Below, in pieces: positions 30,884 to 33,169 of a stretch of 64,000 bases of DNA. Every line of letters begins with the position of its first letter. Position 1 is the stretch's first letter. Position numbers and translations under genes: made by a program. The notes under the pieces were generated by a model, which searched no databases, was not told the origin of the DNA, and saw only the letters and a list, made by a program, of their open reading frames with translations. This DNA comes from Pedobacter sp. BS3 (GTDB lineage Bacteria > Bacteroidota > Bacteroidia > Sphingobacteriales > Sphingobacteriaceae): assembly GCF_008274585.1 (NCBI RefSeq), contig NZ_VTRT01000001.1, forward strand, positions 62,001 through 126,000, given 5' to 3'.

Positions 30884-31885
30884 TTAATTATTTTTCTTCA
30901 ACCGTTTTATATCCTGTTCCAACTCATTTAAACTTTGTTCTTTTTCAAGTGCCTTTTGGGCCAAACGGTATTTTTCCAGCTCTTCTTCTGATTTTTTTGT
31001 TGCCATTTCATGGCTTATTTTACCGGCATGTGTCAGCAACTCACGGCCGTTTAGCTGCAAAATAGCGTCTAAACGCTGTATCCAGTCTTTCATATACATT
31101 GGCGTTTGCTGTTGCGCCATTGTTTCGGCAAAGGCAAGATATTGTTCTACCAATAATCCCAGCAATCGCATTTCGTCTTCATTCAAATAATTTTTAGCAA
31201 TGTTTACGTCCGACTTTTTGATTGCCGATGCATTCTTTTTGTCGAACGATTGCATGCCAAGCAAAGGTAAACGGGCATCAACACGACGATATACCAATTC
31301 TGCCGCGGTTTGGCTGCTGATAGCCCAAAGCAATTTATTTTGTACGGTTTTAAAAAATGCTATTGTTTTTTCATCTCTGGGGTCATAATCAATACTTGTA
31401 GTGTAAATGTCTTTTATTTTCTGATAGAAAAAACGTTCGCTTAAACGGATTTCACGAATACGCTCCTGCAATTCCGTGAAATAGTTCATAGAATTGCCGG
31501 TTTTAAAACGCTCATCGTTCAGGGCAAAACCTTTTATGATGTATTCTTTGAGACGTTGCGTGGCCCATATACGAAACTGTGTACCCTGAACCGATTTTAC
31601 ACGATAGCCTACCGAAATAATCACGTCAAGATTGTAATGTTCTACCTCTCGCTCTATTGTTCTGTTGCCTTCTAATCGAACCAGTCGGAATTTCCGACTA
31701 GTTCGATTTTGCTCTAGTTCGCCTTCGCTGTACACATTTCCAATGTGCTCTGTTATGGTGCTTCTGCCTTTTCCAAAAAGCTGTGCCATTTGGTCTTGAG
31801 TAAGCCAAACGGTTTCTTCTTCCAAACGGACATCTATGGTAATGTTTCCTTCGCTATTTCGATAGATTAAAATTTCGCTTTCCAT
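30884..31885 (-). CDS. rhuM: RhuM-family protein
   Basis: The 333-residue protein has the typical RhuM beginning (EILIYRNSEGNITIDVRLEE and TVWLTQDQMAQLFGKGRSTI), a DNA-binding-like N-terminal domain, then YNLDVIISVGYRV and QFRIWATQRLKEYIIKGFAL. RhuM was named for a Salmonella pathogenicity-island gene. The family is scattered across accessory regions and its biochemical role is not settled. It lies 67 bp after the Fic gene on the same strand. The coding sequence contains a 35-bp near-perfect palindrome (31674-31708). The last 50 residues form a Glu/Lys-rich coiled coil. Confidence 0.92.
   Translation of the reverse strand: MESEILIYRNSEGNITIDVRLEEETVWLTQDQMAQLFGKGRSTITEHIGNVYSEGELEQNRTSRKFRLVRLEGNRTIEREVEHYNLDVIISVGYRVKSVQGTQFRIWATQRLKEYIIKGFALNDERFKTGNSMNYFTELQERIREIRLSERFFYQKIKDIYTTSIDYDPRDEKTIAFFKTVQNKLLWAISSQTAAELVYRRVDARLPLLGMQSFDKKNASAIKKSDVNIAKNYLNEDEMRLLGLLVEQYLAFAETMAQQQTPMYMKDWIQRLDAILQLNGRELLTHAGKISHEMATKKSEEELEKYRLAQKALEKEQSLNELEQDIKRLKKNN
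31674..31708. repeat. 35-bp near-perfect palindrome inside rhuM
   Basis: Arms AATCGAACCAGTCGGAA (31674-31690) and TTCCGACTAGTTCGATT (31692-31708) are complementary except at one position, with a single T at the centre. On the coding strand it encodes NRTSRKFRLVRL. Confidence 0.85.
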
Positions 31886-31952: not shown

Positions 31953-33077
31953 TTAGCTAAATAAATTCAAATATTTTTTAAAGGCATACATCTTACCTCT
32001 TTTCCCACCGGTGAGTTCTTCCAATATGCCCAAAGCCTCTAAATCATTGATAATATTATAGGCCGTACGCTGTGAAACACCCGTAATGTCTACTACAGTA
32101 AGCACATTGATGATAGGTCGTTTTAATAAGTAATTTAATATTTTTTGCGCATTGCTGGCCTTTGGCCCTAAATTCTGGACTTCAATTTCGGATTGAGTTT
32201 TAAGCTTTAATATTTCATCAAATGTTTTAACCCCTTTTTTAGCTGTCTCGATGACACCAACCATAAAAAACTTCAGCCACTGTTTTAAATCATGGTGCGT
32301 CCGGACACGCATCAGATTATCATAATACAATGATTTATTGCGCTCAAAGAAATCGGATAAATAAAGTATAGGTTTTTTCAATATCTCCTTGTCAACTAAA
32401 TACAAGGTAATAAGCAATCTTCCGACACGGCCATTCCCGTCTAAAAATGGGTGAATGGTTTCAAACTGATAATGTATGATTCCTATTTTAATCAAATCCG
32501 GCAGAAGAAATTCAGTATTATGTGTGAATTTCTCCAAATCACTCATTAATTCACCGATGCTACTATGAACAGGGGGAACAAATACGGCATCATTTATTGA
32601 AGCGCCACCAATCCAATTCTGGCTTGTCCTGAATTCTCCCGGCAGTTTATACTCTCCGCGAACGCCTTGTAATAAAACCTTATGTGTTTCCTTAATCAAG
32701 CGGCTTGAAAACGGAATTTCCTTTAACATCTTGATTGCACGATGCATCGCCGTTATATAGTTCTGAACCTCTTCCCAATCATTCCTCCTTTCCTGGCTGA
32801 TATCTTCTTTATCTAAAAGGGCTTCCTCCATATTAGTCTGTGTGCCCTCTATCCGGCTACTTTGTGTAGCTTCTTTAAGTACGTGCATACTAATGTATAA
32901 ATCAATATCAGGGATATGTTCGCTATACATATCCAATCGGCCCAACTGTCTATCTGCCTGGGATAATAAGTTCAACAATTCCATATCATCCAATAACCAC
33001 TCCCGGTTAATGAACGTAGGCTGAAAGCTTTTATAATATCCTTGGTTTATATATTGCCCTGAGTTGAAGCTCTTCAT
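31953..33077 (-). CDS. Fic-domain AMP-transferase with inhibitory helix and C-terminal winged helix
   Basis: Fic proteins usually transfer AMP from ATP to a target protein side chain. The 374-residue protein has the full catalytic motif HPFLDGNGR (209-217). An N-terminal inhibitory motif SSRIEG (73-78) marks class II, in which Glu77 blocks ATP until relieved. The Fic/DOC N-terminal domain leads, and a C-terminal winged helix (about 315-370, VVDITGVSQRTAYNIINDLE) probably binds DNA. Five evenly spaced TTGCAA palindromes lie before the start codon and could be its own operator. The target is unknown. It sits with rhuM in an accessory patch between glnS and the murein amidase. Confidence 0.93.
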   Translation of the reverse strand: MKSFNSGQYINQGYYKSFQPTFINREWLLDDMELLNLLSQADRQLGRLDMYSEHIPDIDLYISMHVLKEATQSSRIEGTQTNMEEALLDKEDISQERRNDWEEVQNYITAMHRAIKMLKEIPFSSRLIKETHKVLLQGVRGEYKLPGEFRTSQNWIGGASINDAVFVPPVHSSIGELMSDLEKFTHNTEFLLPDLIKIGIIHYQFETIHPFLDGNGRVGRLLITLYLVDKEILKKPILYLSDFFERNKSLYYDNLMRVRTHHDLKQWLKFFMVGVIETAKKGVKTFDEILKLKTQSEIEVQNLGPKASNAQKILNYLLKRPIINVLTVVDITGVSQRTAYNIINDLEALGILEELTGGKRGKMYAFKKYLNLFS

Positions 33078-33081
33078 AATC

Positions 33082-33169
33082 TTGCAACTAAAATTTTGTT
33101 ATTGCAAATATGAGTGTAAAATTTGCAATAACGATTTTTTTGTTGCAATAAAATAGGTATTTTTTGCAA
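33082..33169 (-). promoter_or_regulatory. Array of five TTGCAA palindromes before the Fic gene
   Basis: TTGCAA occurs at 33082-33087, 33102-33107, 33123-33128, 33143-33148 and 33164-33169, with start-to-start spacings of 20, 21, 20 and 21 bp, close to two helical turns. The second and third copies lie in a perfect inverted repeat GTTATTGCAAAT/ATTTGCAATAAC. The first copy ends about 5 bp before the Fic start codon, and others overlap a CATATTTG -7-like element. This looks like an operator for a protein that binds one DNA face cooperatively. Confidence 0.75.

Follow-up and report, generated by a model that had tools for sequence, protein, structure and literature searches.

An array of TTGCAA palindromes at the promoter of a Pedobacter fic gene is very probably a private operator read by the Fic protein itself

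The window, i.e., the whole stretch of 64,000 nucleotides of Pedobacter sp. BS3 that was analyzed, contains on its minus strand a fic gene followed by a gene of the RhuM family. The coding features considered here are the following.

30884..31885, minus strand: RhuM-family gene, 67 bp downstream of fic and on the same strand
31953..33077, minus strand: fic gene encoding 374 aa (class II Fic of the SoFic type, predicted winged helix at the C-terminus)
32034..32072, minus strand: recognition helix of the winged helix, residues 336-348, including R337 and N341
32427..32453, minus strand: catalytic motif HPFLDGNGR (residues 209-217), intact
32844..32861, minus strand: inhibitory motif SSRIEG (S73-G78), class II alpha-inh signature

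By its sequence, the window Fic belongs to the SoFic type of class II Fic enzymes; it has a winged helix at its C-terminus and is predicted to act against phages. Both class II motifs are found, i.e., HPFx(D/E)GN(G/K)R and the N-terminal (S/T)xxxE(G/N). Among 61 relatives, S73, I76, E77 and G78 of the inhibitory motif are invariant, as is almost every position of HPFLDGNGR. The PADLOC SoFic profile matches the protein over its full length (residues 14-373, E 3.9e-122). The NCBIfam SoFic equivalog gives 180 bits, under its cut-off of 550: the window Fic is a relative of that equivalog and not the equivalog itself. The C-terminal winged helix, already proposed in a reading made from the sequence alone, is borne out by three results: (i) Pfam detects Fic_N, Fic and a low-scoring winged helix; (ii) the SoFic match is full-length; (iii) the AlphaFold2 model (mean pLDDT 91.6) displays a helix (325-332), a turn, the recognition helix (336-348) and a wing. 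Shewanella oneidensis SoFic provides the nearest solved chains, whether compared by sequence or by fold (top PDB matches 3EQX and 3ZCN).

The RhuM-family gene matches the PADLOC candidate defence model PDC-S05 (E 5.5e-135) and may form with fic a small defence pair in this genome. RhuM as a fixed partner of fic was ruled out, as it is missing beside most relatives. The AS1 antitoxin gene downstream of fic has been described for an E. coli example only. An AS1-like small gene, which is not known as universal and is thus not defining for SoFic, is absent here (no minus-strand open reading frame of at least 20 aa between fic and the RhuM-family gene). In several relatives (L246, L141, L236, L149) fic is interrupted by stop codons, which suggests frequent loss.

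The intergenic region upstream of fic contains the following features.

33082..33087: TTGCAA site 1, closest to the fic start codon
33098..33109, plus strand: left arm of a 12-bp inverted repeat, GTTATTGCAAAT
33102..33107: TTGCAA site 2, overlapping a -7-like box and one arm of the inverted repeat
33105..33112, minus strand: CATATTTG, candidate -7 box 28-35 bp ahead of the ATG, deviating from TAnnTTTG at one position and overlapping site 2; read by eye
33121..33132, minus strand: right arm of the 12-bp inverted repeat
33123..33128: TTGCAA site 3, within the other arm of the inverted repeat
33143..33148: TTGCAA site 4
33164..33169: TTGCAA site 5, most distant from the fic start codon

The sequence-only reading had described five TTGCAA copies at 20/21/20/21-bp spacing running from the start codon, two of them forming a 12-bp inverted repeat. 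The copies and their spacings are exact (starts at 33082, 33102, 33123, 33143 and 33164; span 33082-33169, i.e., 88 bp). The inverted repeat is exact as well, its arms being separated by 11 bp. The lower limit of the array has to be corrected, as the nearest site stops 4 bp short of the ATG (A at 33077); from there the array extends to 92 bp upstream. No more than three copies were obtained in any of 20,000 dinucleotide shuffles of the 161-bp intergenic region, versus five in the real one, and TTGCAA is depleted across the whole window (29 observed vs. 42 expected). A whole-genome search (4.8 Mb) found no second triple TTGCAA array with the same spacing. The spacers between sites are dissimilar among themselves and the orientation of the sites alternates. 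The Fic paralogue encoded in the same genome (32% identity) has no obvious array, as judged by eye.

The TTGCAA word is common to the window fic and to two genes whose proteins are about 82% identical (genomes G104 and G519); each of these has six upstream copies 20-21 bp apart, except for one proximal 40-bp step in G104. At 60-70% identity the arrays are made of different words, e.g., CTTATTTAAG, CTAAAATAAG or TTAACTAAG. A search for the array before related fic genes, as had been suggested, thus succeeds family-wide for the spacing, and for the word TTGCAA only in the relatives at about 82%. Public genomes were also scanned for triple TTGCAA (116 stretches, 78 of them in open frames, and only one locus with a weak Fic-like match); this is uninformative about relatives of fic, since it is the word and not the geometry that changes between them. 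At G109:C6:172624-172881 a 21-bp unit, TTGCAACGGAAACATAGGGCT, is repeated in tandem; this repeat is unrelated and resembles the TTGCAA array in its spacing.

The geometry was analyzed in the upstream regions of 175 non-redundant Fic genes, mainly from Bacteroidota and up to 29 from viral contigs. The lag between repeated 10-mers peaks at 40 and 41 bp in all identity classes. In one class a lag of 41 bp is found in 32 of 42 upstream sequences (1.2 expected from shuffles), in a second class a lag of 40 bp in 36 of 69 (0.9 expected), and in the third both lags, in 13 and 17 of 64 for 40 and 41 bp respectively (0.3-0.4 expected). These lags are near zero within coding sequence. In every class the dyad axes of the inverted repeats are 20.0-20.5 bp apart. 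The shared architecture is that of alternately oriented sites placed every half period of 20-20.5 bp, with a full period of 40/41 bp. TTGCAA being itself a palindrome, such an alternating array appears in the window as a plain 20/21 array.

Strict arrays, i.e., at least three alternating sites with a period of 39-42, were found in 79 of 170 upstream regions and in 28 of 38 in the closest identity class. In the controls the counts were 1-2 of 170 for shuffles, 0 of 170 for the start and for the end of the coding sequence, and 2 of 166 for DNA lying farther upstream. The median number of sites per array is four and the maximum nine, within 180 bp, and all full periods are 40 or 41. About half of the genes fail the strict criterion; by a looser one about a third, chiefly the most distant, are without an array. 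Among SoFic genes from the phyla of an Acinetobacter and a Cytobacillus genome, 17 of 47 have strict arrays; none was found among 14 Fic genes of the mob_myst_B family, which are without winged helix (Bacteroidota). Upstream of a SoFic gene of Acinetobacter beijerinckii (L329), TATGTCGA and TCGACATA alternate with a period of about 40-41, and more distant Bacteroidota Fic paralogues (L153, L237) have CATGTCGA/TCGACACG arrays of similar period (about 40-41).

In four relatives (L175, L195, L261, L279) the word of the upstream array forms a second array past the fic stop codon, at most about 100 bp from it; in three others (L204, L249, L278) the sole array found is downstream of fic. Simple autorepression does not account for the downstream arrays of these four and three genes.

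The word profiles of the array-bearing genes were compared with the columns of the protein alignment, the effect of overall Fic-domain identity being removed. With 112 genes, columns 341 and 337 are the two best predictors of the word out of 349, and 335, 340 and 334 are within the top eleven. With 132 genes, other phyla included, 341 again comes first and 337 second, and bootstrapping keeps them among the top five in 91% and 83% of replicates, respectively. When words were permuted within clusters of related proteins, none of 300 trials matched the observed scores of 337 and 341. In the AlphaFold2 model these two residues both lie on the recognition helix, separated by one turn. The recognition-helix residues are SQRTAYN in TTGCAA genes and mostly xxxTAYK or xxxSAYK in CTTATTTAA genes. 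The signal comes from pairs above about 55-60% Fic-domain identity and more distant pairs are led by other columns; below about 60%, where words can scarcely be aligned, 337 and 341 do not lead, which probably reflects a loss of word alignment. Some columns of the catalytic domain also score, presumably as residual phylogeny. The covariation indicates that the words are probably read by the Fic protein itself, word and protein evolving together, and the two residues 337 and 341 of the recognition helix appear to set the word.

The consensus of the Bacteroidota -7 box is TAnnTTTG. It was found in 44 of 106 relatives (7.5 expected), most often about 30 bp from the ATG on the upstream side; of 45 such boxes in Bacteroidota relatives, 34 fall within the span of the array. 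In the three genomes with TTGCAA arrays (that of the window, G104 and G519) the triple array occurs solely at fic, as does the paired motif in three relatives with CTAAAATAAG arrays. The operators thus look private in these six genomes, which fits autoregulation rather than a regulon.

Taken together, the family-wide geometry, the covariation of word and recognition helix, the overlap with promoter boxes in relatives, the privacy of the array and the precedent of CccR (see below) argue that the array is very probably a private, self-recognized operator through which fic would be cooperatively autorepressed by the winged helix of its own product. The sequence-only reading, which had proposed autorepression by a DNA-binding Fic protein, is thereby supported. 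Each TTGCAA site would be bound by the recognition helix of the C-terminal winged helix of the SoFic-type protein. Fic molecules would occupy adjacent sites, which alternate in orientation and, being separated by two helical turns, share one face of the DNA; neighbouring molecules would be in contact across both kinds of dyad. The filled array would cover the promoter, so that fic would stay repressed by its own product and be released when the latter becomes scarce or is drawn off. We infer binding, repression rather than activation, and cooperativity, as well as any coupling with phage infection or AMPylation.

Two other origins of the pattern were considered. As a simple palindrome with 29 copies in the window, TTGCAA could be recognized by many regulators, and a different one, encoded by the host or by a prophage, might bind the array and control fic. 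This is very improbable: the word varies from gene to gene and follows Fic's own recognition helix, the array is solely at fic in the six genomes, and arrays are found in three phyla amid different neighbour genes. It is hardly credible that the array is a functionless, neutral tandem repeat produced by slippage. Many TTGCAA triples of public genomes do resemble plain tandem repeats or sit within open reading frames, but at fic the spacers are dissimilar, the orientation alternates, and the period is kept while the word changes.

A further alternative keeps the Fic protein on its array and changes the purpose of binding: the array would chiefly control the enzyme, as a multivalent holster from which phage infection would free the toxin; while held there the toxin would be dimeric and either inactive or deAMPylating, and repression would be secondary. 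CbFic2, a related wHTH-Fic, toggles between AMPylation and deAMPylation by DNA binding and dimerisation (PMC10628234), up to nine sites in 180 bp exceed the needs of a minimal operator, and some arrays are downstream of fic. Nevertheless, arrays are positioned over promoters, and the regulatory and toxic activities of CccR are reported to be independent (PMC9755527); we consider this alternative very unlikely. In a combined form, judged rather unlikely, the array would serve as the site of repression and also store the toxin: SoFic proteins would polymerise along the alternating sites of a private, fast-changing operator code, occupancy would keep the enzyme inactive, and phage infection would simultaneously free the protein and derepress fic.

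The sequence-only reading had stated that no such operator was described for a Fic gene. This does not stand for autorepression as such, since autorepression of a Fic-wHTH protein through two inverted boxes is published (CccR, PMC9755527); it stands, within the literature searched, for the multi-site array. Neither multi-site arrays nor covariation of operator and recognition helix in Fic genes are described in the literature searched, subscription journals and preprints being mostly outside it. As far as seen, what is new is the array architecture, together with its spread through the family and an apparent specificity code; autorepression by Fic-wHTH proteins was already known. Winged-helix class II Fic proteins make up a large class among bacterial Fic enzymes, and how their toxicity is restrained is largely open according to PMC9755527. 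The comparison of about 200 related genes yields a family-wide operator architecture and predicted operators for about 100 SoFic genes, and autoregulation, specificity swaps and the coupling of DNA binding with AMPylation become directly testable in laboratory strains.

Among known systems, plasmid iterons, which Rep proteins bind at replication origins, share with the window array short sites evenly placed about two helical turns apart; iterons are direct repeats, whereas the window sites alternate in orientation and lie before a promoter. In Phd-Doc and other type II toxin-antitoxin systems, DNA is bound by a separate antitoxin and not by the Fic-fold toxin chain (see also PMC2686095). In these operons, as is proposed for fic, the locus of a toxin is repressed by what it encodes, through palindromic sites in the promoter; at the window locus there is no separate small antitoxin gene on the fic strand between fic and its neighbour, i.e., no type II partner. 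A possible role in regulating fic expression was already suggested in 2009 for the HTH domains that are fused to Fic, in an analysis of Fido proteins (PMC2686095).

The SoFic anti-phage defence proteins (PADLOC PDLC03963; S. oneidensis SO_4266, 3EQX/3ZCN; EcSofic, PMC12249575) belong to the same family over their full length and provide the closest solved fold. DNA binding by SoFic is not yet demonstrated according to PMC10628234, and operator binding is not described in the published SoFic work examined. CbFic2 of Coxiella burnetii is, like the window Fic, a wHTH-Fic, and its DNA binding is demonstrated; random DNA was used, no operator is known for it, and the DNA regulates the activity of the enzyme (PMC10628234).

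The closest precedent for the proposed autorepression is CccR of Yersinia pseudotuberculosis, a class II Fic with a wHTH whose autorepression was established by footprint, EMSA, ITC and reporter (PMC9755527). CccR and the window Fic have in common the Fic enzyme, the C-terminal wHTH, the N-terminal inhibitory motif and inverted boxes at the promoter. CccR differs in being a secreted T6SS effector, and in having two 10-bp boxes with a 26-bp spacer, versus 3-9 sites (five in the window) with a dyad spacing of 20.5 bp in the SoFic family. The boxes of CccR are 36 bp apart, centre to centre, and its recognition helices 70.2 A apart (PMC9755527). The SoFic spacing corresponds to about 70 A of B-DNA (20.5 bp x 3.4 A), i.e., it matches the distance between the recognition helices of CccR.
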